This document shows positions 1 through 28,012 of a DNA stretch of 64,000 bases, in pieces. Where the stretch lies: NCBI RefSeq assembly GCF_026151205.1, contig NC_087078.1, positions 10,246,675 through 10,310,674 on the forward strand, read 5' to 3'. The position numbers were made by a program, and so were the translations under genes. Each line of letters opens with the position of its first letter. Positions within the stretch are counted from its first letter, which is position 1. A model generated the notes under the pieces. That model was given only the letters and a program-made list of their open reading frames with translations, was not told the DNA's origin and did not search any database. The stretch comes from Bolinopsis microptera (taxonomy: Eukaryota; Ctenophora; Tentaculata; Lobata; Bolinopsidae).

Positions 1-98
1 CTTGGATTCTTTGTGTTTTAAAACGACTATCTGTTACATGATCGATCTGATTGATATGTCTGTCCAGGTTTCTGGAAATTTGCTGTTCATTTGGTAAC
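1..98 (-). pseudogene. PDE12-like exon 7 remnant, tandem unit 0
   Basis: This is the 5' part of exon 7 of a PDE12-like 2',5'-phosphodiesterase, cut by the window edge. It aligns base for base with the same exon in the later units (13322-13635, 18816-19129, 25128-25441). Read on the minus strand it carries a TAA codon where the intact gene at 24335-28012 has TCA, so this copy cannot make the enzyme. The same stop is present in units 2 and 3. The splice acceptor lies just right of it. Confidence 0.8.
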
Positions 99-340
99 CT
101 GGAGTTTCTAGTGTTATCTAATTTATCCAAATATTAACAAGAATTTCCAGTTTTATACAACTAACCCATCAATATATAAACAGTTTCCTTCCAATTTAAC
201 CACAATTGTGTCGGGCCGAATTCTACACAGTTTATTGTGGTTACATTCGTGAAGCAATCAATCTCGACAGGTTGTGTGCATTTTATGATATTACTTACTT
301 TAAATTACAATGTCAAATGTATAATCAATAATCATTGCAT

Positions 341-1903
341 TTTTTTTTTTTTTTTTTTTTTTTAGAGAGGCTGGGCCTGGTTGGCCCACGAGAGGATAGC
401 ATATGAATGCTTTGCATACCTCTGGGGTATGGCAGTCCTGTGGGAGGATGCCAGTGGAATCAAGATGTGTAATCAAGGATGATGGTAAGTGTTGTGGGGT
501 GTGTCATAGATAAACGCTTAAGTGGTGGTTGAGTGTGGAAGAGAGAGGCGAAATAAGACGGCGTTAAAGTAGTCGCTATGTTACACCTGTCTGGTCCAAC
601 TCCTCTGGCACCACTAAGCGTTTAGTGTGGTTTGTAAAGTTGACAATGGTGGAGATGTGTTGGTTGTCGAATATGTCATTGACAGAGAGGTAGTAGTCCC
701 GGAAATATTGACCTCTTATTTGGGCAATAGCCGGGCACTGTCCGAGAAAGTGTGAGACAGTCTCCTCTTCGTCGCCGCATTTAGGACAAGCACTTGTGTC
801 TGATTTGCGAATGGTGTGTAGGTGTTTGTTGAGGCCACAATGTCCCGTGATGAGGTGCACTGCAGTTCTATAATTTTGTCTGTTGTTACTGAGTGTAGTG
901 TTGAGATTTTTGATGATGTTGATGTTTTTATGTCCAAGTGTCAGTTTAGTGTGTCTGGGACCATCAGTAATCCATGATTCTTGATTAAGTTTTGTGACTT
1001 TGTCGTTGATCAGGCGTTTGATGTAAGATTGTGGAATTGGGCAATTCAAAGTGGATTCACTGGTTGTACCATTTTTGGCCAGCTCGTCTGCTTTTTCATT
1101 ACCCCACAATCCAATGTGTGCAGCTATCCATCTGATCTCTAAGGTGTTAGTGGATCCGAGTGTATTGAGGGTGTCGTAACAGTCTCTTGTAGTCCTACTC
1201 CTCGTTGAAGGTGAGGATATGGCTTGAATAGAGGAGAGACTGTCTGACCATATGATGATGTGTGTGTTTGTATAAGTTGATAGATATTTACAAGCTTCGA
1301 TGATGGCAGTGAGTTCTGTTTGATAAACGGTGCAATAATCGGGAAGCTTGAATGATCTTTCATCTAGTGTAGTGTTGTTGTTGTCTGTGGTGATAATATA
1401 ACCAGCCCCGCTACCTGAGTCTGTGCGTGACCCGTCTGTGTAGCAGGTGATGGTTTCACTGGGGATGTTGTCGATGGTGTTTTGGAGTGAGCCTCTATAT
1501 CCAATGTTGTCAGCTCCAGGAGTGGTGACCGTGAAGCGTCGTTCAAGCATCATGGTTGGTATAGATAGGTCTCTCTCTGCTTTGGGTGGTATGTTGAGAT
1601 CTACCATGAATTGTTTGTTGATAGTGGTGTGAGTTGTGATGGTACCTTTTCTGGGGGCGATAGTTTCGAGGGTTAGGCTTCCATAAGCTTGAAGCCTGGC
1701 TGTGCCCTTTGCTGCTTCACCTCTCAGGAAAAGTATGATATCTGGAGTGTTAGTGAGGTGGTTCAGTGCGATGAAGGGAGTACTAGGCATGGCACCAGAC
1801 ATCATTCTCAATGCCAATGCCTGAACTCGTTTGAACTTCCTCGCGTTGGTGTCTGTTTGGGTTGCTCTAATCCATATACTACAGCAGTATGATAGAATAG
1901 GTC
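341..1903 (-). mobile_element. 5'-truncated non-LTR retrotransposon with RNase H domain
   Basis: The insertion interrupts intron 6 of the unit 0 PDE12 copy. The flank at about 280-340 is repeated at about 1904-1981, a target-site duplication near 60 bp, with a further 16 bp internal doubling in the right copy. The left end is a T run of about 23 bases on the plus strand, which is the 3' poly(A) tail of a minus-strand element. Only the C-terminal part of the protein survives, the usual result of incomplete target-primed reverse transcription. The RNase H domain places it in the I-group of non-LTR elements; I cannot name the clade. Confidence 0.88.
576..1817 (-). pseudogene. Retrotransposon ORF2 C-terminus: RNase H and Cys/His tail
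   Basis: This is a 413-codon open frame that lacks the endonuclease and reverse transcriptase parts. After about 125 residues of RT connection region comes an RNase H fold. Its four acidic positions are visible: Asp in YTDGS, Glu in QTEL, Asp in WSDS and Asp in GNEKADELA. The C-terminus has the CPKCGDEEETVSHFLGQC zinc-binding motif typical of RNase H-bearing non-LTR elements. RNase H removes RNA from the RNA:DNA hybrid during retrotransposition. The frame is unbroken, so the insertion is young, but without RT it cannot act alone. A decayed copy of the same family lies at 53340-54112. The apparent first Met is internal to the original protein. Confidence 0.88.
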
Positions 1904-2012
1904 TATTTTATGATATTACTTACTTTAAATTACAATGTCAAATGTATTACAATGTCAAATGTATAATCAATAATCATTGCATATTATCGATTAAACATCT
2001 GTTTGAACTTAT

Positions 2013-2087
2013 CAAGGTCGTTCAAGTCCAACATGAACATTTAAGATTTTTCTTGATATCTGGTAAAGGGAAACTTTCATACTGGCA
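2013..2087 (-). pseudogene. PDE12-like exon 6 remnant, tandem unit 0
   Basis: It corresponds to the 73-base exon 6 of the intact gene at 26265-26337. The acceptor side is kept, but the donor has changed from GTAAGT to ATAAGT, and the exon body carries small changes that break the frame. It is therefore a dead exon. Unit 0 ends about 107 bases to the right, where PDE12 intron 5 sequence is joined directly to the 3' flank of the next zinc-finger gene. Confidence 0.75.
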
Positions 2088-2267
2088 CTGAAAAGTGAGG
2101 CACTTTATAAAAATATCAATTACTCATACTCTGTTGAGCACTGAGGATGCAAAATTTGCTCATCAATAAACAGGAAACTAGTGCAAATAGAGTAGTGTAA
2201 TTTTGACACAATAGCCATTTGTAAACTGATAACGGGGGGATTTTAAACATATACAACCACGATGCTC

Positions 2268-3742
2268 AGAGGCACATATTAGGTGCGGTAAAAAAATCGA
2301 AATTATGCGGTACCGCACCCGACTATAAAGGTAAAATGTGCGGTAAGGTGCGGTAATTTTTTACCAATTATGCGGCAAATGTGCGGCGATTTTTTCGAAA
2401 TTTGTGCGGGAATTGTGCGGTTTTTTTTTGCATTTTCTCAAGGACTTTGGAAATTCTAAACGTATAACCGCCGCTATTATCAAAAATAGGTCTGTTTATG
2501 TGTTACTGAGGGTGTAGTTCTTTACTAAGACCATGATTGAACCTATATTGAGATTCAGTTATCTGAGAACAGTGACTTGATCTGGTAGAGATCAGGAATC
2601 AGGATACAGTTATTTGAAGACGCCTCTTGATAGAATCGATCAGATCCCATGCGCGTGATCGCAAATATGTGACACGCTTCAAGTTGGCATTGATCGTCAG
2701 TACTTGTGAACCATTTAATCCAAGATCCATTAAGCCCACTATAAAGCCAACGCTACAACGAATAAAGCTCATTACCCTTTACACCTACTTCTTCTATTAT
2801 CACCTACGAATGATAACTGATACACTATAATCGAAGTACGGTAACGACGAGGGTTCCATAATGGCCTGAGTCACGGTCCCGAAAGGGCCTCATGGATCAC
2901 GGTCCCGAAAGGGCCTGGGTAACGGTCCCGAAAGGGCCTGGGTAACGGTCCCGAAAGGGCCTGGGTCACGGTCCCGAAAGGGCCTGAGTCACGTGGCCTA
3001 AGCATGAGTTCCAAAAGGGCCTGGGTCACGGTCCCGAAAGGGCCTGGGTCAGGGTCCCGAAAGGGCCTGGGTCAGGGTCCCGAAAGGGCCTGGGTCACGG
3101 TCTCGAAAGGGCCTGGGTCACGTGGTAACTGGGTCACGTGACCTAAGCATGAGTTCCAAAAGGGCCTGGGTCACGGTCCCGAAAGGGCCTGGGTCAGGGT
3201 CCCGAAAGGGCCTGGATAACGGTCCCGAAAGGGCCTGGGTCACGGTCCCGAAAGGGCCTGGGTCACGGTCCAGAAAGGGCCTGGGTCACGTGGTAACCGG
3301 GTCACGTGGTAAGCATGAGTTCCAAAAGGGCCTGGGTCACGGTCCCGAAAGAGCCTGGGTCAGGGTCCCGAAAGGGCCTGGGTCAGGGTCCCGAAAGGGC
3401 CTGAGTCACGTGGTAACTGGGTCACGTGGCCTAAGTATGAGTTCCAAAAGGGCCTGGGTCACGGTCCCGAAAGGGCCTGAGTCAGGGTCCCGAAAGGGCC
3501 TGAGTCACGGTCCTAAAAGGGCCCGACTTTTAACATATTTTGGTTTTTACACTCGAAAATCTTAACGCGAAAATTTCACAATTATGCGAAATTACGCGGA
3601 AAATGCAAGATTATGCGGAAATATGCAGATAATTACAAAATGTGCGGAAATGTGCGGAAAACAATAAATTATGCGGAAGTGTGCGGAAAACGGTAAATTG
3701 TGCGATCCCGCACCCATCGCACCTAATATGTGCCCATGAATT
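2268..3742. mobile_element. MITE-like element with terminal inverted repeats and internal minisatellite
   Basis: It is absent from the matching place in units 2 and 3. The ends carry a 17 bp inverted repeat, GGCACATATTAGGTGCG at 2271-2287 and its complement at 3718-3734. The host word GATGCTC occurs on both sides (2261-2267 and 3743-3749), suggesting a 7-8 bp target duplication as in hAT elements. Both flanks inside the ends are full of direct repeats of the words TGTGCGGA and TATGCGGA, as expected for transposase-binding subterminal repeats. There is no transposase. The centre is a minisatellite. Confidence 0.75.
2862..3524. repeat. 23 bp minisatellite with higher-order structure
   Basis: More than twenty tandem copies of a 23-base unit contain the near-palindromic core GGTCCCGAAAGGGCC. 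Four times the array is interrupted by a longer block with GGTCACGTGG and AGCATGAGTTCCAAAAGG, giving a higher-order repeat of roughly 120-140 bases. The long frame at 3122-3565 on the plus strand is only translation of this repeat and is not called as a gene. Confidence 0.9.
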
Positions 3743-4514
3743 GATGCTCCATTACTAGATTACTTAATGTCAATAAAAGCACCAAAGTCCAAATCATAAT
3801 ATCTCACCATCTTATCAAGAACTGAACAACATCTTGCAGGACTGCCAATTCATTTTCTCACCATAGTGGATTCTAGAATATTTCTTGTAGGATCACTCAT
3901 TTTTCTTGCAGCATAGGAGCTCTGTGAACATTTGAATCATTTCTCCCCAGAGTGAGTTCTCATGTGTCTAGTAAGATGCATAGCTTGTCTTGCAGCAAAT
4001 GAACACTCAGAACACTTAAAGGGTTTATCACCTGAGTGAGTTCTCATATGTCTAGTTAGATGACCTGCATGTTTTGTAGCATATGAACACTCAGAACACT
4101 TGAAGGGTTTATCACCTGAGTGATTTCTCATATGTACAGTAAGGTCACTATTTCTACTTGTAGCATATGAACACTCAGAACACTTGAAGGGTTTCTCACC
4201 TGGGTGAGTTCTCATATGTTCAGTAAGAGCACCTGCTCGTTTTGTAGCATATGAACACTCAGAACACTTGAAGGGTTTCTCACCTGAGTGAATTCTCATA
4301 TGTACAGTAAGCCCAGTGACATAAATTTAAAAAGGGACTAGGAATCCAGTCTGGAAAGAAAAAACGGCTACCATATATTTTTAAAACGACTACCATAAAT
4401 TTTTCGGCCGCTCCGCGGCCGGATAACGATTTCATTTTACTTTGCTAGTTATATTACAGAGGTTTAGTTATTCATTAGTATAGTTATTAATTCATTAGTA
4501 TAGTTATTCATAAT

Positions 4515-5571
4515 GGGGGTGATGCAACGTCAATTAATGTCAATTAATGTCAATTAATGTCAATTAATGTCAATGTCAGTTTTGCAAAATTTTGGAATAC
4601 TGACATTAATTGACACGATATTTTTCGACCAGAGATTATGTAGTTCTACCATATTTTTAGCACTTTAGAACGTTTATATCATCAATTTATTCACTACTAT
4701 CACATATGGAAATGTGAAATGTGAAAAAAATTCAGATCATTAAATAATAAAACTAAAATAATACGGTTTTCCGAAATTAAATTTTCTTAAATGGACGTGG
4801 CCATCCAAGGGCGTGGTTCTCAACATCATCAGAACTTAAAACCCACATTAAACGAAATGCCTTCATGACATTTATATTTGAATAACGAATCTTAAACAGC
4901 TAACATTACTCCTTCATACTAAAAAAGCCGATTCTAGATATTTTACCTGTATAAGAAACCAATAAAATATGGGCGTGGCCGGTGGGGACCGAAGATGGAA
5001 GAGTTGGAAGCTGAAATTTTTTTTGGTGGTCTTTGAACCTAAGAATCAACAGATAAGAACATCTTACTATACATAAAGCGAGACGATATATATGGTTCCG
5101 TGCCATTTTACTGACACCACGGCATCAACTTTAACGGGACTTTCCTCAAAAACCGTAAAAGATATACAACTGAAACTTTTTTGACTGAGTCAAATGCTTT
5201 AATGGCCTTCAAATCAGTATGAAAAAATAAAAAATTGGCCAAGGAATAAGAATTTTAGTGCCCAAAATTTGGACCCCCAAGTGGTGTCAAAAACGCGAAA
5301 TAGGTAATAATTATTTTAGTCTCTTGAGTCTTGACACCACTTTATAGTAAGACGGGTTCCTGCTAGTACTCATAATTATTCAAGGACATTTTGTTTTTTT
5401 GAACCGGTCTAACTTACATAGACGTGAATATCTTGAATATTTATCGAATAATGATAATCTCAAATTTCAAGACAAATTAATGTCAATTAATGTCAATTAA
5501 TGTCAATTAATGTCAATGTCAGTTTGGGGTTTTTATGGAATACTGACATTAATTGACGTTGCATCACCCCC
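4515..5571. mobile_element. Nested element with 28 bp inverted repeats
   Basis: It begins GGGGGTGATGCAACGTCAAT and ends with the complement of the same sequence; the match runs for about 28 bases. The 8 bp target duplication TTCATAAT is at 4507-4514 and 5572-5579. Both ends carry tandem arrays of the 10-mer TGTCAATTAA (about 4525-4575 and 5475-5520), followed by TGTCAG and an inverted CTGACATTAATTGAC. It has no coding capacity. It inserted after the element that surrounds it. Confidence 0.9.
5110..5365 (+). repeat. Dispersed repeat bounded by TGACACCAC, copy 1
   Basis: This is the interior of the nested element. The segment from CTGACACCACGGCATC to GTCTTGACACCACTT recurs, in one or the other orientation, at about 41757-42095, 46858-47115, 52640-52910 and 59527-59870, with half-copies near 43440, 44470, 61330 and 62340. 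It has no long reading frame. It marks a DNA transposon family common in this genome. Confidence 0.7.
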
Positions 5572-5610
5572 TTCATAATTGCCAAAAGATTGTGAAAGAA
5601 TTCCTTTCCA

Positions 5611-5665
5611 GGTCTCGAACTCGCGATCTGCTAATGTAGTAACGACGGATTAACCGACTAGGCTA
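5611..5665 (-). other. tRNA-like segment (SINE head or tRNA relic) with A and B boxes
   Basis: Read on the minus strand it contains TAGCCTAGTCGG (A box, 5654-5665) and GAGTTCGAGACC (B box, 5611-5622) at tRNA-like spacing. These are the internal promoter elements used by RNA polymerase III. The T-arm does not pair well, so I read it as a tRNA-derived SINE head or an old pseudogene and not a working tRNA gene. Confidence 0.55.
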
Positions 5666-6580
5666 CGATTTCATGCACGCTTTCGTAATATTGACATATA
5701 GGTCTTCGCGCGTTCCTGCAACTACCATACTACCATACTACCAAACAGTCCATACTACCATACTGGTAGTAGGAAAATCTTGGATCCTGACAGAAATATC
5801 TTGGATTATTTGGTAACGCGCAAGTTAAGCGCAAGAACTAGGATCCTGACAGGAATCTGGCATTTGCGCTCGATTCGAACATCTTCTCGGATAAATATAG
5901 AATTAAAGTACAGTGCGCGGCGTTACAGTGTGTAACAACCGAGAGCGACTATTTTAAAGTTGATTTAATAATTTTGTTGACAAAAATTAGTCGGCGTGGC
6001 TATGGAAATTAATATGGCTAGGAATTAGATTCTTAGATTCCTCACTTTATGTCACTGGGACAGTAAGATGACTTGCATGTTTTGCAGCAAATGAACGCTC
6101 TGAACACTTGAAGGGTTTCTCGACTGAGTGAATCTTTTGATGTTCTTTAAGTATTCTCCAATATGCTGCACTGAATGTACACTGTGAACACCCAAATGGT
6201 CTCACAGGCAGGCTCTCACTAGGTGACAGAACTAATGTCCTCTGAGGATCTGTTCCAGTCAAGTTATCTGAAGTATCAAAGTAGTCAGGTATTTCTGGGC
6301 TGCTATGATCATGGTGCTGCTTTACATGTTCTATTAAATGAGTGTCTGAGTAATCATGTTCAGCACAAACTGGACAGATAAAAATAGATGGTTTATCTGA
6401 TTCAGATGTAAGTTCTTGTTTTATTGTACAATTTGATATTGTTTTATGTTCTTTGATGTGCTCAACAAAGTAGTCTTCTGAAAAGTAATGTGCTCCACAC
6501 ATTGGGCAGAGGAAACCGTTTGACTTTTCTGGGATCTCCACTTGTTCTGATTTGATCTCTTGTTTACATTCTTTAGACAT

Positions 6581-7080
6581 TCTGAGGTACTGGAATATAA
6601 GAGATATATAAAGTACATTTATTTAAAATTCGATAGTGAAGGAATGTGTTATTGATAACTTGCCTTATCCAATAAAAATCACAAATATTTGCCCAATTAA
6701 ACCGGCCGGACAGTATCTCAAAATTTATAATCTTGAACCTTATTTCATTAACTACGGTCTCTAATTTTAGAAACGATGACTTAAGCTCAATAGTTTATTA
6801 TATTCGAAAGGAACGACCAAGCTAAAATAATAGTTATAGTAACATAAAATTAAAACTTACTAATATTCACACCACGTAACCAAAGCACATCAATTATTAA
6901 TAATGTAAATCACATTTAATTGTTTACTTAATAAAACAAAACTGTTTGTAATATGATATCATACTGAATAATATCAATAATAACTAATCCCCGAATTTAC
7001 AAATTCAACAAAATAGTCCATACACGATCAAAGATGGAAGTAATATTTCACAGAAAGTGCTAAAAGTAGTTAAGATTTAA
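6581..7080 (-). promoter_or_regulatory. 5' region of zinc-finger copy 1: splice sites and presumed promoter
   Basis: A pyrimidine-rich acceptor (CTCAG just before base 6581) precedes the ATG by one base. A strong donor, ATTA/GTAAGT, lies on the minus strand at 6855-6860. Together they suggest a non-coding first exon right of 6861 and an intron of about 275 bases. The same two sites are kept in units 2, 3 and 4, where later transposons sit inside this intron. The promoter itself is not visible as a motif. Confidence 0.5.
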
Positions 7081-8484
7081 TCAGTATCTCCAAGTAATAT
7101 ATAGATATAAGATATCAGATATAATGGGAAGATGATCAGAGGGGAATATAGCACTACGACATCCCTCACTTTCCTCCAGATCAGACAGATTTGGAGATGG
7201 AGTCACGTGGCCAACCTGAAAATTAGAAAAAGGGTAAATTTGAAAGTAAAAATCACACAAATCAAAAATCACGATCTCTACGATATGCGACAAGATTAAC
7301 GCCATCTTAGGCCGCGATGAAATTGATGACTCCTCGGACTAATTTAAATATATTCCTTTTGAGCTTCTGTAAGTTGTAACGTCCTCAATAAATATATTTA
7401 ATTGTAGTTCTAGTTGTGAAAATAGTTTTGATATAAAATCCAAACATTAGCTTCTATCTTTTTAAGACGAAAACAAGATAGTAAAGTGAGAATTTATTTG
7501 TAATCATTATGATCAAATAGAGATTATTATAGCTTCTCCAACTAACCGTTGAATTTTCATCACACACGATATAATCTATAACGTCTTTAAAGTCAGCAGT
7601 ATAGTTTGTGTAGTTTGGTTCACCCCGGGCCAGAGTAAGTTTTAAAGGATTCCGAACATTTTTATGCAAGAAGTTTTGCAATTCGTCCCCATTCTCGACC
7701 TGAATATATTATGTTGTGTTGTGAAAATTTGAACCTTTCTAACGTATGGAAATCGAAGTAACTGAAAATTGTTTCGAAGAAGTGCGCCACCTGAACACCC
7801 ATTACATATAAGCAAAACAGTCTAACCTGTATTGCAGAACAAAACAATAAATAAAATACAAATAATAGCTGAGAATAAGAATTCTTCAGATACCTGCGAG
7901 ACCACTCCATCAGTGAGATAAGCATTAACTAAACTGGTTGTCTGAGAGTTCATATCACCACAAATAACCACACTGACACCCTCCCCCTGCTTCTGATAAA
8001 CCTCCCTAACAGTCTGGATCTTGCTACACAGGGCGTGTATGTGGAATAGTGCTATTATGTGGTATTCAGGATTCCAGTACAGATGTGTGTTGCCAACTAT
8101 TACTAGTTTCTTGGATTCTTTGTGGTTACCTGGAGTTTCTAGTGTTATCTAATTTATCCAAATATTAACAAGAATTTCCAGTTTTATACAACTAACCCAT
8201 CAATATATTAACAGTTTCCTTCTAATGTAACCACATCTGTGTCGGGCCGAATTCTACACGGATTAGTCTGGTTACACTCCTGAAGCAATCAATCTAGACA
8301 GGTTGTGAGCATTATATGATATTACTTACTTTAAAATTAAATTACGATGTCAAATGTATAATCAATAATCATTGCATATATTATTGATTAAACATCTGTT
8401 TGAACTTACCAAGGTCGATCAAGTCCAACATTTGAGAGTTTTCTTGATACAAATCTGGTAAACCGGGAAACTTTCATACTGGCA
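7081..8484 (-). pseudogene. Partial PDE12-like copy, exons 6-9, tandem unit 1
   Basis: Exon 9 is 7081-7215, exon 8 7547-7699, exon 7 7894-8129 and exon 6 8410-8484. The GT-AG borders of exons 7 to 9 match the intact gene. Exon 7 is short by exactly 78 bases (26 codons); the missing part is the one that holds the premature stop in the sister copies, so exons 7 to 9 here read open, including the GDMN and SDH active-site motifs. Exon 6 has two extra bases, and exons 1 to 5 are absent, so no full enzyme is possible. It could be transcribed only from a new promoter. Confidence 0.82.
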
Positions 8485-8834
8485 CTGAAAAGTGAGGCAC
8501 TTTATAAAAATATCAATTACTCATACTCTGTTGAGGACTGAGGATGCAAAATTTGCTCATAAATAAAAAGGAAACTAGTGCAAATATAGTAGTGTAATTT
8601 TGACACAATAGATATTTGTAACACTGATTACGGGGGATTTCAAACAGATACAACCACTACGATGCTCCATTACTTAAAGGCACCAAAGTCCAAATCATAA
8701 TGTCTCACCATCTTATCAAGAACTGAACAACATCTTGCAGGACTGCCAATATAGTTTCTCACCATAGTGGATTCTAATTTTTCTTGTAGGATCACTCATT
8801 TTTCTTGCAGTATAGGACCTCTGGAACATTTGAA

Positions 8835-9899
8835 TCATTTCTCCCCAGAGTGACTTCTCATGTGTCTAGTAAGAAGCATTGCTTGTCTTGCAGCAAATGA
8901 ACACTCAAAACATTTGAAGAGTTTAAGGGGTTTATCACCTGAGTGAGTTTTCATATGTCTATTAAGATTACATGCGTTTCTGGCAGCAAATGAACACTCA
9001 GAACACTTGAAGGGTTTCTCACCTGAGTGAGTTCTCATATGTACCGTAAGATCACCTGCTCGTTTTGTAGCATATGAACACTCAGAACATTTGAAGGGTT
9101 TATCACCTGAGTGAGTTCTCATATGTACAGTAAGATTACATGCGTGTCTTGCAGCAAATGAACACTCAGAACATTTGAAGGGTTTCTCACCTGAGTGAGT
9201 TCTCATATGTTCAGTAAGATTACCTGCTTGTCTTGCAGCAAATGAACACTCTGAACACTTGAAGGGTTTCTTGCCTGAATGAGTTCTCATATGTTTAGTA
9301 AGATTACCTGCATGTTTTGTAGCATATGAACACTCAGAACACTTGAAGGGTTTCTCACCTGAGTGAATTCTCATATGTACAGTAAGATCACCTGCTCGTT
9401 TTGTAGCATATGAACACTCTGAACATTTTAAAGGTTTCTCTTCAGAGTGAATCTTTTGATGTTCTATAAGTGTTCTCGAAGATGCTGCACTGAATGTACA
9501 CTGTGAACACCTAAATGGTCTCACAGGCAGACTCTCACTAGGAGACAGAACTAATGTCCTCTGAGGATCTGTTCCAGTCAAGTTATCTGAAGTATCAAAG
9601 TAGTCAGGTACTTCTGGGCTGCTATGATCATGGTGCTGCCTTACATGTTCTATTAACTGAGTGTCTGAGTAAACATGTTCAGCACAAACTGGACAGATAA
9701 AAATAGATGGTTCATCTGAATCAGATGTAAGTTCTTGTTTTATTGTACAATTTGATATTGTTTTATGTTCTTTGATGTGCTCAACAAAGTAGTCTTCTGG
9801 AAAGTAATGTGCTCCACACATTGGGCAGAGGAAACCGTTCGACTTTTCTGGGATCTCCACTTGTTCTGATTTGATCTCTTGTTTACAGTCTTTAGACAT
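8835..9899 (-). CDS. C2H2 zinc-finger protein, copy 2 (10 fingers)
   Basis: This is a 354-residue, probably nuclear DNA-binding protein. Residues 23-45 and about 67-90 are two atypical N-terminal C2H2 fingers. SUMO consensus sites lie at IKSE (9-12) and IKQE (53-56). A linker of about 40 residues precedes eight tandem fingers of the form FKCSEC-x12-H-x3-H joined by THSGEKP/THSGDKP linkers; the protein stops four residues after the last one. Finger helices differ chiefly at -1, 2, 3 and 6 (for example KRAGDLTV, KHAGNLTK, RQAGNLTE, RHACNLTV), the base-contacting positions. The last linker has an extra LKL, which may change finger spacing. The start Met follows a splice acceptor. Paralogues lie at 3937, 15387 and 21345. 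I cannot assign a target sequence or orthologue. Confidence 0.9.
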   Translation of the reverse strand: MSKDCKQEIKSEQVEIPEKSNGFLCPMCGAHYFPEDYFVEHIKEHKTISNCTIKQELTSDSDEPSIFICPVCAEHVYSDTQLIEHVRQHHDHSSPEVPDYFDTSDNLTGTDPQRTLVLSPSESLPVRPFRCSQCTFSAASSRTLIEHQKIHSEEKPLKCSECSYATKRAGDLTVHMRIHSGEKPFKCSECSYATKHAGNLTKHMRTHSGKKPFKCSECSFAARQAGNLTEHMRTHSGEKPFKCSECSFAARHACNLTVHMRTHSGDKPFKCSECSYATKRAGDLTVHMRTHSGEKPFKCSECSFAARNACNLNRHMKTHSGDKPLKLFKCFECSFAARQAMLLTRHMRSHSGEK

Positions 9900-17318: not shown

Positions 17319-17461
17319 CCGGACAGTATCTCAAAATTTATAATCTTGAACCTTATTTCATTAACTACGGTCTCTAATTTTAGAAAAGATGACTCTAGCT
17401 CAAAAGTTAATTATATTCGAAAGGACCGACCAAGCTAAAATAATAGTTAAATATAGTAACA

Positions 17462-17785: not shown

Positions 17786-18033
17786 AGTAACAGAAAATTA
17801 AAACTTACTAATATTCACACCACGTTATATTACCAAAGCACATAAATTATTAACAATGTAAATCACATTTAAATGTTAACTTTATAAAACAAAACTGTTT
17901 GTAATATAATATCATACGTACTGAATAATATCAATAATAACTAATCCCCGAATTCACGAATTCAAAAAAATACTCCACACACGATCAACGATGGAAGTAA
18001 TATTTCACAGAAAGTGCTAAAAGTTGTTAAGAT

Positions 18034-19478
18034 CTAAACAGTATCTCCAAGTAGGATAATATCAGATATAATGGGAAGATGATCAGAGGGAAATATAGGA
18101 CTAGGACATCCCTCACTTTTCTCCAGATCAGACAGATTTGGAGATAGAGTCACGTGACCAACCTGAAAAATTAGAAAAAGGTGTTTTTAAAGTATAAATC
18201 ACACAAATCGAAAATCACGATCTCTAAGATATGCGACAAGATTAACGCCATCTTAGGACACGAGGAGAGTGATGACTCCTCGGACTAATATAAATATATT
18301 CCTTCTGTAACGTTAATATAAATATATTTAATTGTAGTTGTGAAAATATTTTTGATATAAAATCCAAACATTAGCTTCTGTCTTTTTAAGACGAGAACTA
18401 GATAATATTGATGGTAAAGTGAGAATTTATTTGTAATCATAATGATCAAAACAAAGATTATAGCTTCTCCAACTAACCGTTGAATTTTCGTCACACACGA
18501 TGTAATCTATAACGTCTTTAAAGTCAGCAGTATAGTTTGTGTAGTTTGGTTCACCCCGGGCCAGAGTAAGTTTTAAAGGATTCCAAACATTTTTATGCAA
18601 GAAGTTTTGCAATTCGTCCCCATTCTCGACCTGAATATATTATGTTGTGTTGTGAAACTTTGTACCTTTCTAACGTATGGAAATCAAAATAACTGAAAAT
18701 TGTTCTGATGAAGTAAGCCACTTGAACTATAAGAAAACAGCCTAACTTGTATTGCAGTACAACACAATAGATAAAATACAAATTTAGTAGCTGAGAATAA
18801 GAATTGTTCAGATACCTGCGAGACCACTCCATCAGTGAGATAAGCATGAACTAAACTGGTTGTCTGAGAGTTCATATCACCACAAATAACCACACTGACA
18901 CCCTCCCCCTGCTTCTGATAAACCTCCCTAACAGCCTGGATCTTGCTACACAGGGCATGTATGTGGAACAGTGCTATTATGTGGTATTTAGGATTCCAGT
19001 ACAGATGTGTGTTGCCAACTATTACTAGTTTCTTGGATTCTTTGTGTTTTAAAACGACTATCTGTTACATGATCGATCTGATTGATATGTCTGTCCAGGT
19101 TTTTGGAAATTTGCTGTTCATTTGGTTACCTGGAGTTTCTAGTGTTATCTAATTTATCCAAATATTAACAAGAATTTCCAGTTTTATACAACTAACCCAT
19201 CAATATATAAACATTTTCCTTCTATTTTAACCACATATACATCTGTGTCGGGCAGAATTCTACACAGCTTAGTCTGGTTACTCGTGAAGCAATCAATCTA
19301 GACAGGTTGTGTGCATTTTATAATATTACTTACTTTAAATTACGATGTAAAATGTATAATCAACAATCAATGCATATTATCGATTAAACATCTGTTTGAA
19401 CTTACCAAGGTCGATCATGTCAAACATTTGAGAGTTTTCTTAAAACAAATCTGGTAGAGGGAAACTTCCATACTGGCA
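18034..19478 (-). pseudogene. Partial PDE12-like copy, exons 6-9, tandem unit 3
   Basis: Exon 9 is 18034-18162, exon 8 18478-18630, exon 7 18816-19129 and exon 6 19406-19478; all borders agree with the whole gene. Exon 7 carries the TAA shared with units 0 and 2. Exon 9 has three extra bases. With no exons 1 to 5 and an internal stop it is a pseudogene, although its exon structure is otherwise clean. Confidence 0.87.
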
Positions 19479-19671
19479 CTGAAAAGTGAGGCACTTTATA
19501 ACAATATCAATAGCTCATACTCTGTTGAGGACTGAGGATGCAAAATTTGCTCATAAATAAACAAAAAACTAGTGCAAATAGAGTAGTGTAATTTTAACAC
19601 CATAGCTATTTGTAAAACTGATTACGGGGGATTTCAAACAAATACAGCCACGACAATGCTCCATTACTTAA

Positions 19672-21173
19672 GGCCAGAGGGGGGGGTAAGGGGTCAAAAA
19701 TTTCTACCAAAATATTATTTTCTAAATCGATTTAATTTTGGATGACAAAAACATTGCTGCTATTCACATATTTGTAGCTGATTAACTTTATTTCATAATT
19801 GAGGTTAACCGATTTTCACAAAATTGACTATACAACATTGAGGTTAATAAAATTGAGGTTAAAATTTTATTACACGCCATAATTTTTTGTTATTTCGGTC
19901 AGCAAATGTAAACTCTAAACTTTAGGTTCATAATTATCAGAAAAATTAATATCCAAACGTGATTAAATGAGGTTAACCTCTTCTTTTAGATATAGCGAGA
20001 ATAGATCACATGATAGAGTTATTATTTTCATCGTAAGTTTACGGTATACACATTTCCAAATAGATGACGTGTTGAATGACTTTCTTTTATCTTGGAAAAT
20101 GAAAAAAATGAGGTTAACCATCACATTTTGGTACCGTAGGGAATATACATACGATTCTTACTTTTGTAATGTACCACAATATCGAAGTGAGGTATCTATT
20201 GGTATCACAATGCCTACAACTATAATCACGTGACAAAGGTGATTTGAACTGACCATATTTTAGTAGAAGATTTTGCCCGTAAATGGCTTAAAAATGAGGT
20301 TAACCTCTCATTTTTTGAATATCTGACCAGTCAATTACATGTTAACCTCAAAAACTTAATCGTTATACTGTGCAAATGTTTTACTACATATATAATAACA
20401 TATTGATAAACCAATCCCAGTGTTATATGGTCTAAAGCGAGGTTAACAACCAAATTTTAAGCAGTTAGTGTTTACAGGAAGTCTTGGTTAACCTCATTTT
20501 TTACAATACAAGGACATTAACTACTGAAAGTGGCTAAAATCATTCAGGGGACGGCCAGGTCTGATCAAGCAAACGTTATTAAGTGTATAAAAAGTCCTAA
20601 CTAACGAACTGTGATACATTCCAGTGAATATTCAAAATTTTGAAAACACTAAATTGCATCTATCTCAAAACACATTCTGTGACTTCCAGTTCCTTAGTTG
20701 AGAAAACCAACCACCCTCTGATATTGAGATTTGGTACAGTGGTTCCTTGGACAAGTATCTAGACATTAGATGCAGCGATTTTTTTTATTCGACTCGTTTC
20801 TCGAATTATGAGGTTAACCAGCTAAATTTGTCGAATTTTTGACATGGTTAACCTCATGATTCAAGAACCGAGTCAAATAAAAAAAATCGCTGCATCATAA
20901 ATGAGGATAATTGTCCAAGGAACCACTGTACCAAACCTCAAGATCAGGGAGTGGCCAGTTTTCTCAACTAAGGAATCGAAAGGTCAAAAAAGTTACAGCC
21001 GTTTAAATATCCAGTTTAACATGTGATTACAGGTAAACCTCAAAATTTAGCGCGCGATATCTCAGGAACGCAAGGTCAGATTTTGATCCGGTTTTTTTCT
21101 TCTTGTTCGTCTCCAGCAGCTATTATCAAATATGTGAAAACTAGAAAAGTGCCATTTACCCCCCCCTCTGGCC
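19672..21173. mobile_element. TTAA-flanked (piggyBac-type) MITE with GAGGTTAACCTC palindromes
   Basis: It has terminal inverted repeats GGCCAGAGGGGGG and complement, with TTAA on each side (19668-19671, 21174-21177), the target used by piggyBac transposases. The host continues without it in units 2 and 3. It is 1502 bp long with no transposase. The palindrome GAGGTTAACCTC or a half of it occurs at least nine times (19801, 19969, 20110, 20296, 20341, 20439, 20486, 20810 and 20846). A separate inverted pair of about 110 bp arms lies at about 20690-20800 and 20868-20978. Confidence 0.88.
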
Positions 21174-21344
21174 TTAATGTCAATAAAGGCAACAAATTCC
21201 AAATCATAATGTCTCACCATATTATCAAGAACTGAACAACATCTTGCAGGACTGCCAATTTAGTTTCTCACCATAGTGGATTCTAATATTTCTTGTAGGA
21301 TCACTCATTTTTCTTGCAGCATTAGAGCTCTGTGAACATTTGCA

Positions 21345-22325
21345 TCATTTCTCCCCAGAGTGAGTTCTCATGTGTTTAGTAAGATGCATTGCTTGTCTTG
21401 CAGCATATGAACACTCAGAACATTTGAAGGGTTTGTCACCTGAGTGAGTTCTCATATGTCTAGTAAGATGACTTGCATGTTTTGCAGCATATGAACACTT
21501 AGAACACTTGAAAGGTTTTGCACCTGAGTGAGTTCTCATATGCACAGTAAGATGATCTGCTCGTCTTGCAGAATATGAACACTCAGAACACTTGAAGGGT
21601 TTCTCACCTGAGTGAGTTCTCATATGTACAGTAAGATCACCTGCATGTTTTGTAGCAAATGAACACTCAGAACACTTGAAGGGTTTCTCACTTGAGTGAG
21701 TTCTCATATGTCTAGTAAGATGACTTGAATATTTTGCAGCATATGAACACTCAGAACACTTGAAGGGTTTCTCACCTGAGTGAGTTCTCATATGTACAGT
21801 AAGATCACCGGTATGTTTTGTAGCAAATGAACACTCAGAACATTTTAAACGGTTCTCTACAGAGCTAGAGTGAATCTTTTGATGTTCTATAAGTGTTCTC
21901 GAATATGCTGCACTGAATGTACACTGTGAACACCTAAATGGTCTCACAGGCGGACTCTTACTAAGAGACAGAACTAATGTCCTCTGAGGATCAGTTCCAG
22001 TCAAGTTATCTGAAGTATCAAAGTAGTCAGGTACTTCTGGCCTGCTATGATCATGGTGCTGCTTTACATGTTCTATTAACAGACTCTCTGAGTAAACATG
22101 TTCAGCACAAACTGGACAGATAAAAATATATGGTTTATCTGATTCAGGTGTAAGTTCTTGTTTTATTGTACTATAATTTGAATTTGTTTTATGTTCTTTG
22201 ATGTGCTCAACAAAGTAGTCTTCTGAAAAGTAATGTGCTCCACACATTGGGCACAGGAAACCGTTTGACTTTTCTGGGATCTCCACTTGTTCTGATTTGA
22301 TCTCTTGTTTACAGTCTTTAGACAT
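21345..22325 (-). CDS. C2H2 zinc-finger protein, copy 4 (9 fingers)
   Basis: This 326-residue protein has the same plan as its paralogues: two N-terminal C2H2 fingers, SUMO-type IKSE and IKQE, a linker, then seven FKCSEC-type fingers ending SGEK. Finger helices include KHTGDLTV, KYSSHLTR, KHAGDLTV, RRADHLTV, KHASHLTR and RQAMHLTK. It has a three-residue insertion (SSS) in the first array linker and lacks the usual GEKP there. I start at the Met of MSKDC because a splice acceptor (CTCAG) lies one base upstream; the in-frame upstream Met is inside the intron. It sits directly downstream of the whole PDE12-like gene on the same strand. The 5' intron contains the mariner-type element. Confidence 0.9.
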   Translation of the reverse strand: MSKDCKQEIKSEQVEIPEKSNGFLCPMCGAHYFSEDYFVEHIKEHKTNSNYSTIKQELTPESDKPYIFICPVCAEHVYSESLLIEHVKQHHDHSRPEVPDYFDTSDNLTGTDPQRTLVLSLSKSPPVRPFRCSQCTFSAAYSRTLIEHQKIHSSSVENRLKCSECSFATKHTGDLTVHMRTHSGEKPFKCSECSYAAKYSSHLTRHMRTHSSEKPFKCSECSFATKHAGDLTVHMRTHSGEKPFKCSECSYSARRADHLTVHMRTHSGAKPFKCSKCSYAAKHASHLTRHMRTHSGDKPFKCSECSYAARQAMHLTKHMRTHSGEK

Positions 22326-22573
22326 TCTGAGGTATTGGAATATAAGAGATATATAAAAGTACATTTATTTAAAATTCGATCGTGAAGGAATTTGGAATTG
22401 ATAACGTGCCTTATCCAATGAAAATTACAAATATTTTCCCAGTTGAACCACCGGGACAGTATCCCAAAATGTATAATCTTATTTCATTAACTACAGTCTT
22501 TAATTTTACTTAAGCTCAATAGTTTATTATATTCGAAAGGAACGACCAAGCTAAAATAAAAGTTATAATAGTA

Positions 22574-24098
22574 CAGGGTGGCCCATAAGTGACTACCCAC
22601 ACGCAACCTCTTAATAACTCACGTAATTCGTCTCCAAATTGCACCAAAATTTCAGAGATTATAGATATGGGTCAAACTTAGATTTCCTGAAAGTTTCGTA
22701 AGCCACGCCCAATTACAGTGGGCGTGGCGTGACACTCCCTCTTTTTCACTATTGTCTTCATAAAATGAGAACGCTTTAAGCTAAGAACTCAAAATTTTTT
22801 GCACACATTTGGCTTGATAATTGAAAACTTTTCCAAAAGTTTCAAGTTCATTGGTTAAAATATGGCTGAGTTATGACCATTTTAAAATCCATCGGATATG
22901 TGATCCGAGCACTCAGTCAGTGATATTTGCACTCAATTAGTGATCTCGTCACCCAATCTGATCAAGAGTAAGGCGTTATCGTGTATTAATGAGGTTCATT
23001 AGGCTTTGATTGGATACCGATGATGTCTTTGCTAGAAAGGAAAACACAAATTTTTAGGATAAATCAATAAATGAAATCAACTAATAAAAATTCCCACACA
23101 AAAACAATTCAATAATTTCAATTAAGATGTTCAAGGAATGTGTTGGCGAAATCTATCCTCGATTGGAAATCACGGTCCAAAAGTTTGTGTTTCTTTGTGA
23201 TTCGGTAGGCCCGGTTAGAAAGGTCTTGCTTTAGGATTCGCTGAAGGGTTGTTCTGCTGAGGTCTAAGGCAGGAGCTCGTTTCCGGGTGCCAATCTTAGG
23301 TGTGTCCATCACGTCACCAACAACCATCGTGATGTTTTCTACAGTCCTCGCAGTTCGTCTTCTGCCGACTCTTCGCCGATCGTGTGCAGAAAACGTAAAC
23401 TTGATCTTGTGATGAATGTCAAAGCAGCTTTTCCGGCAAGGGGGTGGTCGGTTGAATTTCATCTGAAATTGTCGTTTAATCTGAGGGTAGAACTCCCCAT
23501 TTTCTTTCTTCAGGTAGACGAACAATCGTTGTTCTGCAGTAAAGGGAGGATAGTGAACCATTTTTATTGATTGTAAGGAACCTGCGAATAGCAGGGCTAA
23601 CAAGCCCTGAAATGGTGACACCACCATAAATTCGTGTGATAGCGTTTTACTTTTAGGTGCTGTCAGCTGTATAGGCCGGCCCATAAGCAGGCTGCAACCA
23701 ATCAAGCGGTGCATGTGAGCCAAACAGGCCATTATCCAAGTGACGAGATCACTGACTGAGTGCTCGGATCACGTATCCGATGAGTTTTGAAATGGTCATA
23801 ACTTAGCCATATTTTAACCAATGAACTTGAAACTTTGGGAAAGGTTTTCAATTATCAAGCCAAATGTGTGCAAAAAATTTGGAGTTCTTAGCTTAAAGCG
23901 TTCTCATTTTATGAAGACAATAGTGAAAAAGAGGGAGTGTCACGCCACGCCCACTGTAATTGGGCGTGGCTTACGAAACTTTCAGGAAATCTAAGTTTGA
24001 CCCATATCTATAATCTCTGAAATTTTGGTGCAATTTGGAGACGAATTACGTGAGTTATTAAGAGGTTGCGTGTGGGTAGTCACTTATGGGCCACCCTG
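22574..24098 (-). mobile_element. Tc1/mariner-superfamily element with ~350 bp terminal inverted repeats
   Basis: It starts CAGGGTGGCCCATAAGTGAC and ends with the complement; TA lies on both sides (22572-22573 and 24099-24100). The arms run to about 22926 and 23746 and are nearly identical, which argues for recent activity. The enclosed frame encodes only the DNA-binding part of a transposase. It lies in the 5' intron of zinc-finger copy 4. Confidence 0.9.
23118..23561 (-). CDS. Mariner-type transposase DNA-binding domain only
   Basis: This is a 147-residue open frame starting MVHYPPFTAEQRLFVYLKKE. It resembles the paired helix-turn-helix N-terminus of mariner-type transposases: first helix-turn-helix (TAEQR ... 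FNRPPP), a basic GRRRTART segment between the helices, and a second helix-turn-helix region (LSRTTLQRILKQDL) ending FANTFLEHLN and a stop. The catalytic DDE/D domain that should follow is absent, and the stop is soon followed by the left inverted repeat. Such a protein can bind the inverted repeats but cannot cut. It may be a relic or a self-made repressor. A longer frame extends upstream to 23732 but its extra residues do not look transposase-like. Confidence 0.78.
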   Translation of the reverse strand: MVHYPPFTAEQRLFVYLKKENGEFYPQIKRQFQMKFNRPPPCRKSCFDIHHKIKFTFSAHDRRRVGRRRTARTVENITMVVGDVMDTPKIGTRKRAPALDLSRTTLQRILKQDLSNRAYRITKKHKLLDRDFQSRIDFANTFLEHLN

Positions 24099-24334
24099 TA
24101 TATAAAATTAAAACTTACTAATATTCACACCACGTAACCAAAGCACATCAATTATTAATAATGTAAATCACATTTAATTGTTTACTTAATAAAACAAAAC
24201 TGTTTGTAATATGATATCATACTGAATAATATCAATAATAACTAATCCCCGAATTTACAAATTCAACAAAATAGTCCATACACGGTCAAAGATGGAATTA
24301 ATATTTCACAGAAAGTGCTAAAAGTTGTTAAGAT

Positions 24335-27300
24335 CTAAACAGTATCTGCAAGTAAGATATCAGATATAATGGGAAGATGATCAGAGGGGAATATAGCACT
24401 AGGACATCCCTCACTTTCCTCCAGATCAGACAGATTTGGAGATGGAGTCACGTGGCCAACCTGGAAATTAGAAAAAGGGTAAATTTGAAAGTACAAATCA
24501 CACAAATCAAAAATTACGATCTCTACGATATGCGACAAGATTAACGCCATCTTAGGCCGCGATGAAAGTGATGACTCCTCGGACTAATTTAAATATATTC
24601 CTTCTGTAACGTCCTCAATAAATTTATTTAATTGTAGTTCTAGTTGTGAAAATAGTTTTGATATAAAATCCAAACATTAGCTTCTATCTTTTTAAGACGA
24701 AAACAAGATAGTAAAGTGAGGATTTATTTGTAATCATTATGATCAAAATAGAGATTATTATAGCTTCTCCAACTAACCGTTGAATTTTCATCACACACGA
24801 TATAATCTATAACGTCTTTAAAGTCAGCAGTATAGTTTGTGTAGTTTGGTTCACCCCGGGCCAGAGTAAGTTTTAAAGGATTCCGAACATTTTTATGCAA
24901 GAAGTTTTGCAATTCGTCCCCATTCTCGACCTGAATATATTATGTTGTGTTGTGAAAATTTGTACCTTTCTAACGTATGGAAATCGAAGTAACTGAAAAT
25001 TGTTTCGAAGAAGTGCGCCACCTGAACACCCATTGCATAAGCAAAACAGTCTAACTTGTATTGCAAAACAAAACAAAACAATAAATAAAATACAAATAGT
25101 AGCTGAGAATAAGAATTGTTCAGATACCTGCGAGACCACTCCATCAGTGAGATAAGCATGAACTAAACTGGTTGTCTGAGAGTTCATATCACCACAAATA
25201 ACCACACTGACACCCTCCCCCTGCTTCTGATAAACCTTCCTAACAGCCTGGATCTTGCTACAGAGGGCATGTATGTGGAACAGTGCTATTATGTGGTATT
25301 TAGGATTCCAGTACAGATGTGTGTTGCCAACTATTACTAGTTTCTTGGATTCTTTGTTTTTTAAAACGACTATCTGTGACATGATCGATCTGATTGATAT
25401 GTCTCTCCAGGTTTCTGGAAATTTGCTGTTCATTTGGTTACCTGGAGTTTCTAGTGTTAACTAATTTATCCAAATATTAACATTTAGAATTTCCAGTTTA
25501 TACAACTAACCCGTCAATATATTAACGGTTTCCTTCTAATTTAACCACATCTGTGTCGGGCCGAATTCTACACAGCTTAGTCTGGTTACACTCGTGAAGC
25601 AATCAATCTAGACAGGTTGTGTGCATTATTATATGATATTACTTACTTTAAATTACGATGTCAAATGTATATTTAATAATCGTTGCATATTATCGATTAA
25701 CAAGAAATGCGGCCGCTTTTCTTTTGTGGATGGCCGCTCAATTTCCCGATCCGTGATGGAGTATTTGATCATATTCCATACCACCTGTGGACCCCAGTCT
25801 TTACTGTTTATAAGCATGCAGATATGGCGGAGTGACAGGCCGAGCGCCGCCCAGTTGATATAATTCCATATTTAATTTGAAAATCGTGTATATTTCTATG
25901 TAACCATATGTTTATTGTTTATGCAACCTGACACGGATCTGTGCAAAATAGTAATACTAACTCAAAATAATAATAATATGCTATCAATTAGTCCCGAGCG
26001 GGATGCGTACATGATGAAATTAACAATGTACTTGAACATTTCAGCACCGCGCGCCAACAATTGTTTAATTCAGATTTTCGCGCAAAATAACTTTGCGCAG
26101 GCAGACACGTGGGCGAAACGTACGCAGACACGCACGCTCGCACGCAGGTACGGTCGCAAAGCTACCATATCCCAAAAAAACCTCGATCGCTAACCCTTGT
26201 CCTTGACTCTTTTGTGCCTTCGGCACTTGAGTCATGGATCGGGAAAAAATCTGTTTGAACTTACCAAGGTCGATCAAGTCCAACATTTGAGAGTTTTCTT
26301 GATACAAATCTGGTAAAGGGAAACTTTCATACTGGCACTGAAAAGTGAAGCACTTTTTAAAAAATCAATTACTCATACTCTGTTGAGGACTGAGAATGCA
26401 AAATTTGCTCATAAATAAACAGGAAACTAGTACAAATAGAGTACAATGCGAGGTAGAAACGATGAATTTAATCTAATGTAAAAAAATCTAAAAAAAGAGT
26501 AACTGGGTATTACAATCAGTATAATGTTCAGATTATAATATTATGTGCACTGCTATTTGCAACATAACTTACTTCTTCATACTGGTCAAGTTTAAAGAAA
26601 ATAGCACAACCAGCTTTGAATCTTCCTTTTTTCACTGTAATGTGTCCCTGGTACGACTGCAACATTGGCACCAGATATTTGCTAAATGTTTTATCTTCAA
26701 CCTGAGCAGTTTTACATTGGTTTCCTTGAAAGGTGGGCAGATATCAATTCAGAATTATTAGTTTCTTCTTTTAAATCATAACTTAACTGAATACAATTCA
26801 ATACTGACCAGTGCAGTACTAACTTACTTCTTGCAAACAGAGCAGGTGAGGATTGTGAGCCCAAACTTCAGCCACAATTCTTGGCTCTCTGTATTCCCTG
26901 GCCTGGTACTTCTTTGAACAGTAAGGAAAATGGTTTGTGATTGGCTTTGTCTTAGATTCCATAAAAACATCTGCAAACTTAGAAATCATTAATTCTAGAA
27001 TTTACAAGGCTGCTAAATGACTGTTCTTATGTAATGGCGGCCTGTTATGGACCACAGCTGTTTTTTATTTCTTTAAAAGTTACCCAAAAACACAGCTGGA
27101 ATGTTTAAAAGTCACCATGCTTGTGAGAAATTTATTTCTTAATGGGTATTATATAATGTTACTCACCAGCCAAAATGTTGTAGGACATAAGTCTTGTATA
27201 ACCATATTCTATTGGAACAGCTCTTGAGAGCAATATGTTGGTATCTTTATCGTCAATTACTGGACCAATAACATTAGAAAAAACTGTCTCTACTCCTGTA

Positions 27301-28012
27301 AAGAAATAGATGATTACAACATGGAAATGGAAATAAACTCATGCTCCACATGTGCATTGGCCATCAATTACCATAAGGAGACATTATAACCAATGTCTAG
27401 TAACAATGACAGAAATAAAGACTTACCCACAGCTTTACTCGAAAGTCGTATAACATTTCCGACCAGCTTTTGATACAGCAATAGCACCTCTGAAGTTGAG
27501 ATTTGTTCCCATGAATCACTGTCTTTAGCTTTAGTCTCCCAAGTATAAGTGAGGTCATTTAAGGTCAAATCTATCAATTTGACTGTGGGGGAGATCGCCA
27601 GACCTGATAACATTAAATAATAAGACCAAAATCTACCAACCAATATAGTCTGTAGAAATTTAACTTGCCAAACAAAAAAGATTTGTAACCAACCTGCGAC
27701 TGGTGTATTGGGAATCTTTAGAGATTCGATAGTAGGAGGATCAACCAAAATCTCATAAACAATGTCATTACAAACGAATTGGTTGGTTGGGATTAGAGCA
27801 TCACACAACTCGACAGTTTTCTTAACAGTAGTTCCTCTACAGTCAGTGAGAGCTACTGTTTTAACTTCAGTGGGTAATTTTGATTTTATCCTGTTGACAA
27901 ATGCTTCCACAGTCTCATTTGATGATCGATCAAAGCGTTTTGTTTGATATGGCAGGTGAAGAAGTATACATAATCTATTCTTTGACAAGGTACGAACCAC
28001 AAGACGGTTCAT
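24335..28012 (-). CDS. PDE12: PDE12-like 2',5'-phosphodiesterase (EEP nuclease), complete, 9 exons
   Basis: Coding exons on the minus strand are 27694-28012, 27427-27603, 27167-27295, 26828-26970, 26573-26701, 26265-26337, 25128-25441, 24778-24930 and 24335-24460. Every border is GT-AG, phases agree, and they join to 520 codons plus a stop. The product matches vertebrate PDE12: an N-terminal beta-rich region (VVR ... VDPPTIESLKIPNTPVAG), then an endonuclease/exonuclease/phosphatase fold. Active-site motifs are SYNILAD (Asn205), LQE (Glu256), NTHLYW, GDMN (Asp408, Asn410) and FPSDH (His507). The human enzyme degrades 2',5'-oligoadenylate and trims mitochondrial poly(A) tails. The human protein is 609 residues; this one lacks its mitochondrial leader. 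A splice acceptor at 28036 suggests a further upstream exon. Intron 6 holds an insertion. Confidence 0.92.
25701..26248. mobile_element. Unclassified insertion in PDE12 intron 6
   Basis: The host reads straight across this point in units 0 to 3. The left ~290 bases (AATGCGGCCGCTTTT ... ATGGCGGAGTGACAGGCCGA ... CTATCAATT) recur at about 45528-45850 and 63385-63680, and part of it inverted near 40585-40625. The right half is unrelated to those copies and is GC-richer. No transposase, clear inverted repeat or tail is visible. Confidence 0.65.

Follow-up and report, generated by a model that had tools for sequence, protein, structure and literature searches.

A zinc-finger gene array with copied PDE12 tails in Bolinopsis microptera and its probable origin from an inverted-repeat element

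Introduction

Tandem segmental duplications that take in a truncated passenger gene can be expanded by non-allelic homologous recombination, and Pack-TYPE transposons are gene-carrying, non-autonomous elements with terminal inverted repeats (TIRs). The KRAB and ZAD zinc-finger families form gene clusters. Zinc-finger genes have expanded repeatedly in animals, for which the usual explanation is local tandem duplication, and in C2H2 fingers it is helix positions -1, 2, 3 and 6 that contact DNA. Here, an array of C2H2 zinc-finger genes and partial copies of a PDE12-like gene is described from the ctenophore Bolinopsis microptera. The array lies in a window of 64,000 nucleotides (C7:10246675-10310674, where C7 is contig NC_087078.1). 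The genome paper of this species reports 13 chromosome-scale scaffolds, an estimated size of about 254 Mb and closure of gaps with TGS-Gapcloser (PMC10232365).

The array shows no essential difference from a tandem segmental duplication, in that it likewise has a single founding joint that recurs from unit to unit, part of a neighbouring gene and patchy similarity. No pairing of PDE12 with a zinc-finger tandem array was found in the literature searched. The best explanation for the locus, which we regard as probable, is that a TIR-borne C2H2 gene arrived by PDE12 and that tandem duplication, unequal exchange to five units and decay of the copied PDE12 tails followed.

Five units share one joint

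The array comprises five head-to-tail units, each consisting of PDE12 exons 6-9, damaged in some units, and one C2H2 gene (Table 1). Units 1-5 are 6858, 4463, 6531, 6397 and 5628 bases long, and these differences are due largely to unit-specific insertions. The first-pass annotation had reported at least four units with the same joint. The repetition and the joint both stand, while the count becomes five, with the left end at -3433, 3.4 kb outside the window (coordinates below 1 denote sequence left of the window, taken from the same contig). The joint was sought as a 20-base pattern with up to three mismatches allowed, and the result was compared with shuffled sequence. AAATAGAGTA followed by GTGTAATTTT occurs four times within the window (three times exactly and once with a single mismatch) against 0.02 expected in shuffles, so that the same joint is indeed present between all neighbouring units.

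Both outer ends of the array run into native sequence. At the right, native PDE12 intron 5 goes on at 26444; at the left, the sequence past GTGTAATTTT is new and corresponds to the native 3' flank. The bases AGTA are common to both native flanks at the break. Breakpoints of this kind are what a founding tandem duplication at short microhomology would leave, with unequal exchange copying the joint afterwards. As annotated earlier, only the rightmost unit is joined to a complete PDE12-like gene. Unequal exchange had also been proposed, and remains the natural reading because the joints are identical; growth of the array from the right-hand end, the other part of that proposal, is not shown, as both ends are single-copy flanks and the similarity between units is patchy.

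Units diverge by ~1-13% in alignable non-coding stretches and carry their own insertions. In intron 8, unit 1 is nearest to unit 4, from which it differs by 2.2%, whereas its distance from the remaining three is 10-11%; the same is true in the 3' spacer (1.4% against at least 7%). In exon 7, however, unit 1 differs more from unit 4 (3.4%) than it does from unit 2 (1.9%). That the nearest unit changes from region to region suggests that exchange or conversion continued inside the array.

Table 1. Coordinates of the array, of the PDE12-like gene and of zinc-finger-bearing elements elsewhere (TSD, target-site duplication)
Feature	Position	Strand	Basis or state
Complete PDE12-like gene, nine exons	24335..28012	-	splice ends, open frame, family searches
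PDE12 exons 1-5	28012-27694, 27603-27427, 27295-27167, 26970-26828, 26701-26573	-	
PDE12 exons 6-9	26337-26265, 25441-25128, 24930-24778, 24460-24335	-	
Native breakpoint site, PDE12 intron 5	26434..26443	+	extra AAATAGAGTA, sequence continues without joint
Unit 1	19586..26443	-	exons 6-9 of complete PDE12 gene, zinc-finger gene 1
Unit 2	15123..19585	-	PDE12 tail (stops in exons 6 and 7), zinc-finger gene 2
Unit 3	8592..15122	-	PDE12 tail (exon 6 split by an insertion, exon 7 stop, exon 9 end and stop codon deleted), zinc-finger gene 3
Unit 4	2195..8591	-	PDE12 tail (exon 6 2-base insertion, exon 7 minus 78 bases, exon 9 insertion), broken zinc-finger gene 4
Unit 5, right part	1..2194, continues to -3433 with zinc-finger gene 5	-	PDE12 tail (exon 6 indels, stops in exons 7 and 8)
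Joint of units 1/2	19576..19595	+	pattern search, breakpoint comparison
Joint of units 2/3	15113..15132	+	pattern search, breakpoint comparison
Joint of units 3/4	8582..8601	+	1 mismatch; pattern search, breakpoint comparison
Joint of units 4/5	2185..2204	+	pattern search, breakpoint comparison
Zinc-finger gene 1	21345..22325	-	open, 326 aa
Zinc-finger gene 2	15387..16358	-	open, 323 aa
Zinc-finger gene 3	8835..9899	-	open, 354 aa
Zinc-finger gene 4	3937..6580	-	interrupted ~4310 to ~6069 by insertion of ~1.8 kb
Zinc-finger gene 5	-3207 to -1861		unit 5; open, 449 residues
Element on C7	C7:10508.6 kb		TSD TCGTGATC (script); ends agree 26/30
Element on C11	C11		TSD AAGCACAA (script); ends agree 26/30
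Element on C10	C10		TSD TTACGAAA (by eye; script gave none); ends agree 24/30
Element on C12	C12		TSD GCTCATTA (script); right end altered, 12/30 without gaps

Two further features were noted within the units. A minisatellite occupies 2850-3565 in the 3' flank of unit 4; its open frame repeats RKGLGxGPERAWV-like motifs. Between PDE12 and zinc-finger gene 1 lies a 1.5-kb insertion (22576-24097) with inverted ends 97.5% alike and a 216-codon frame, transposase-like by eye and without a Pfam match; this insertion is missing from the inverted copy of the array described next.

Inverted second copy of the array

A second copy of the region lies 185 kb from the array, where C7:10441-10515 kb mirrors the region from about window position 40263 to about -21761 in collinear but inverted form. 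In it are found native intron 5, the native 3' flank and four joints that best match those of the window in order. Of these, the flank and the last two joints fall in noisy sequence with a 76-82% match, and the noisy PDE12 tail copies, which reach about C7:10497 kb, were recovered by DNA comparison alone. Clean stretches show ~0.1-6% mismatches to the window side and many large insertions. Past its second unit, the sequence of the inverted copy (C7:10470.5-10474.5 kb) consists of a dispersed repeat. The inverted copy may be a second allele set next to the first one, or it may be a genuine inverted duplication.

The noisy stretch, C7:10482-10502 kb, is 70-80% identical to its mirrored copy with many indels, and its mismatch falls from ~25% to 5% and then to 1.5% near 10502-10503 kb, so that it looks like an unpolished gap fill. 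Such an abrupt change, within 2 kb near C7:10502 kb, indicates that the region troubled the assembler and is the one point in favour of the array being an artefact of assembly. Recovery of the same five-unit order with its joints in two separately placed copies argues against a local assembly error, as do the divergence between units and their own insertions. Moreover, there are no N runs in the window or in the stretches around both copies, and an artefact is considered extremely improbable.

The copied PDE12 tails are pseudogenes

The exon model of the complete PDE12-like gene was made by eye. All eight introns are of the GT...AG type and the frame is open over 520 residues. The protein contains an endonuclease/exonuclease/phosphatase domain (PF03372, 6.5e-9, residues 240-507), and its top match is human PDE12 (4z0v, 6e-38), ahead of CCR4/CNOT6, Angel2 and nocturnin; the competitors 4b8c_D, which we take to be yeast CCR4, and CNOT6 score 5.5e-23 and 1.7e-19, respectively. 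The alignment to 4z0v begins at residue 90 and so takes in the region before the catalytic domain. LQEV, GDxNS and SDH, presumably the catalytic motifs, line up in the PDE12 alignment.

Besides this gene, exons 6-9 recur in four partly damaged copies, all of which carry disabling lesions (Table 1); the tails of units 2 and 3 have the same exon 7 stop. Among the four tails 44 sites vary, distributed 16/12/16 over codon positions 1/2/3, and the changes comprise 25 replacements, 16 silent changes and 3 stops against ~32/11/2 expected at random (72/24/4%), all counts excluding the second part of unit 3 exon 6. Even codon positions and stops mark a dead frame, on which grounds purifying selection on the tail exons was rejected. 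The PDE12 tails are dead pseudogenes.

Two observations are nevertheless unexpected under simple neutrality and weigh against plain decay. Silent changes in the tails are modestly above the random expectation (16 against ~11), and exons 7 and 8 together differ by only 1.1-3.0% between units where introns 6-8 differ by 3.3-8.4%, a contrast that holds for each of the ten pairs of units (nine have p between 0.005 and 2e-6 and the tenth 0.24; the pairs are non-independent). The latter contrast, together with the position of each tail directly upstream of its zinc-finger gene and in the same direction, would fit an alternative in which the tails serve the zinc-finger genes, as 5' exons, as a promoter or as a source of antisense or small RNA, and were co-amplified for that reason. 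Every tail has stops, frameshifts or deletions and its codon positions are unbiased, however, and the zinc-finger family occurs elsewhere without PDE12, so that such a role is judged unlikely. Moreover, the low-divergence stretch starts ~100 bases inside intron 6 and does not follow the exon boundary exactly; because of this, patchy conversion, perhaps with the intact PDE12 gene, is the favoured but not settled explanation of the quiet exons.

Whole-genome searches covered 264.7 Mb in 232 contigs. Strong PDE12 exon matches occur only at C7:10.245-10.275 Mb and in the inverted copy at C7:10.459-10.467 Mb, and one further short, weak match (47%) lies on C1. For the zinc-finger family, 150 of 1568 candidates were scored, and the family counts given here hold among the matches listed. 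Clusters without PDE12 were found on C1, C2, C7, C9, C10, C11 and C12. A general coupling of the two gene types is therefore not supported; PDE12 and the zinc-finger gene were rejected as a general gene pair, and their coupling looks accidental.

The zinc-finger genes

Each unit carries one C2H2 gene with a single coding exon, which encodes two finger-like motifs followed by the finger array. In zinc-finger gene 5 a pair of fingers, with contact residues QCNV and QGHV in every case, is repeated four times, likely the product of a recent expansion within the gene. The two proteins scanned of the five, zinc-finger proteins 1 and 2, match PF00096, PF13465 and PF13909 over the Pfam cut-off. In the same two proteins there was no match to KRAB, ZAD or SCAN, and beyond the finger models only ADNP_N appeared, below the cut-off.

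Variation in the recognition helix was measured as entropy over 80 fingers (69 distinct) from 16 open frames, one of which is the inverted copy of gene 1. Among the freely varying positions, to which the measure applies (several others are fixed by the search pattern), entropy is 2.43 at +6, 1.99 at each of -1 and +2, 1.65 at +3, 1.20 at +5 and 0.81 at +1. The family thus resembles KRAB/ZAD clusters in its tandem C2H2 genes and in having helix positions -1, 2, 3 and 6 as the most variable of those free to vary. It differs from them in that KRAB, ZAD and SCAN are unmatched in the two proteins scanned and in that some clusters are bounded by TIRs. In the N-terminal part of the protein the pooled pN/pS is 0.51 over 105 non-independent pairs from 15 of 19 copies, four copies having been excluded for insufficient length or lack of the end motif; this indicates weak constraint at most. 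Two ctenophore-specific C2H2 proteins are named in work on chromatin loops (PMC12221973).

Part of the family lies in or beside a TIR element

At C7:10508.6 kb, in the inverted copy, a 1.17-kb insertion contains an open zinc-finger gene, has TCGTGATC on both sides and has inverted ends around GTATCCAATGGTGAAA. The mirrored site near -15820 is without this insertion, which in this one case provides the empty site.

When the end was used as a 22-base pattern, it was found at 35 places with at most one mismatch, and the reversed pattern at none. With a 21-base pattern and up to three mismatches, 103 places were found, but the reversed control also gave 37, which leaves only the close end matches informative. 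The 39 ends of the 21-base search that have at most one mismatch were compared with the family, for which the first 50 listed matches plus one on C12 (51 in all) were grouped into 16 loci; left out of this set were shorter fragments, mostly within the same loci, and weaker relatives. Thirteen of the 39 ends lie near the 16 loci against 0.047 expected, and nine of the loci have an end within ~6 kb. The other 26 ends lie away from these loci, which implies that the element also exists without zinc-finger cargo.

Seven end pairs were examined. Four of them contain zinc-finger genes, and all four are bounded at both ends with exact 8-base duplications (Table 1). The C10 element holds three such genes in 6.4 kb, and the C12 pair, of which ~10 kb at the two ends was read, spans 22.6 kb with seven family matches. 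In the pairs without zinc-finger genes, the target-site duplication is exact over 8 bases on C1, agrees at 7/8 on C4 and shows no match at C7:19.73/19.74 Mb. Part of the zinc-finger family therefore sits in or beside an inverted-repeat element, a link that was out of sight of the first-pass annotation.

The three pairs lacking zinc-finger genes were considered as sources of a transposase and each was rejected: the open frames of the 5.3-kb C1 pair are reverse-transcriptase-like by eye, the 3.6-kb C4 pair holds a fragment of unassigned kind, and no matching target-site duplication flanks the C7:19.73-19.74 Mb pair. No autonomous partner element was found among these three. The C4 pair (C4:7167.8-7171.4 kb), which has the same inverted ends, contains a 171-codon frame that resembles part of some other gene.

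The elements are like Pack-TYPE transposons in having a host-type gene between TIRs, target-site duplications and no transposase of their own seen. They differ in that the cargo is a whole open zinc-finger gene, present as three or about seven in tandem in two of the elements, and in that the genome is that of an animal. Pack-TYPE transposons are treated in a plant review (PMC13317346). Judged by titles and abstract openings, no zinc-finger cluster carried by a TIR element was recognised among the papers listed, and searches for C2H2 with target-site duplication, miniature inverted-repeat transposable element and tandem, and for Bolinopsis transposable element with zinc finger, found no paper.

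Origin of the array at PDE12

Just left of the array, at -3981, there is a TIR end that agrees at 21 of 21 bases, and the stretch from this end to the array is found again at other zinc-finger loci. GGTTTAACTGGGC marks the start of homology upstream of the zinc-finger start codon, both in the units and in most aligned copies elsewhere. In element-borne copies this boundary mostly abuts the element end; at the array it abuts the PDE12 flank, with at most a degenerate end. Two aligned copies are exceptions in being without the GGTTTAACTGGGC boundary, and two inner C10 copies show the boundary without an element end. Taken together, the existence of TIR-borne family members and the surviving end beside the array make arrival at PDE12 by transposition probable.

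A number of observations count against this explanation. The end at -3981 is without the usual preceding run of G, the right-hand element end beside PDE12 is not a clear TIR, being degenerate or lost, and the 8-base boundary duplications are imperfect, with 5, 6, 7, 6 and 5 of 8 bases (by eye) in units 1-5. Seven of the 16 zinc-finger loci (three on C9, C2:6.9 Mb, C1, the inverted array and C2:10.08 Mb) have no end within ~6 kb at up to one mismatch, although ends with two mismatches occur at C7:10497.3 kb, the far edge of the inverted array, and at C2:10080.9 kb. Among the seven zinc-finger loci fetched elsewhere, a set outside which lie C7:12.67 and 12.81-12.84 Mb, three (C7:925 kb, C7:10687 kb and C2:10.08 Mb) have one end only. 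Finally, no transposase was recognised by eye in the printed open frames of the end pairs, for which no family-library comparison was made. Transposition is thus likely but, given the imperfect duplication and the lost or altered ends, not proved at the PDE12 locus itself.

These points lend some weight to an alternative in which PDE12 had the zinc-finger gene as its neighbour from the start, or gained it through ordinary duplication, and the end at -3981 belongs to a stray element. The array has a single clear TIR end and an imperfect target-site duplication, and zinc-finger clusters without detectable ends do exist. We nonetheless regard this alternative as rather unlikely, since the unit homology starts at GGTTTAACTGGGC as it does in TIR-borne copies elsewhere and other zinc-finger loci share the sequence left of the array. 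Five clusters on C1, C2:6.9 Mb and C9 have no TIR ends, and most are of lower identity to the query (66-89%). A split of the family into a young mobile and an old static part is not shown, as C9:6.95 Mb (81-89%, without ends) overlaps in identity with the end-bearing C7:10508.8 kb (81%).

Returning to arrival by transposition, the family evidence suggests that a C2H2 gene in a non-autonomous TIR element would have landed just downstream of PDE12 and in the same direction. The breakpoints show that a tandem duplication joined the left native flank to intron 5 of PDE12 at AGTA, so that exons 6-9 and the zinc-finger gene were copied as one piece. From such a pair, unequal crossing-over and conversion between homologous units probably produced the five units that now share the joint. 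The tails, without exons 1-5, decayed to pseudogenes, as their lesions attest, while the zinc-finger genes stayed open in four of the five units. The net product would be extra zinc-finger genes with differing DNA-contact residues, to which the PDE12 tails would be passengers.

More tentatively, and with less than even confidence, part of the zinc-finger family may spread as DNA-transposon cargo, either gene by gene or in entire tandem clusters, and may still be moving; insertions would seed local arrays by tandem duplication with host neighbours, and the fingers may regulate the element that carries them. Part of one family is found here both in TIR-bounded elements, among them multi-gene ones with exact target-site duplications, and in a local array that has captured a portion of an adjacent gene. 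If this reading is true, it provides a concrete route by which zinc-finger families reach new chromosomes and are then amplified, and it raises the question of whether the cargo fingers control the element, whose ends resemble GGGGGTATCCAATGGTGAAA.

Other features of the window

At 28512-33006 there is a 988-codon retroelement-like frame without a Pfam match; inverted fragments nearby are 99% identical, and the frame has a near-identical copy in the inverted region. Further to the right, the stretches 40728-46160 and 58511-64000 are ~83% alike and 18 kb apart. Neighbouring them, 54200-57200 has no long match above 90% elsewhere, with copies at 84-90% on C7:9.7-10.36 Mb and on C13.

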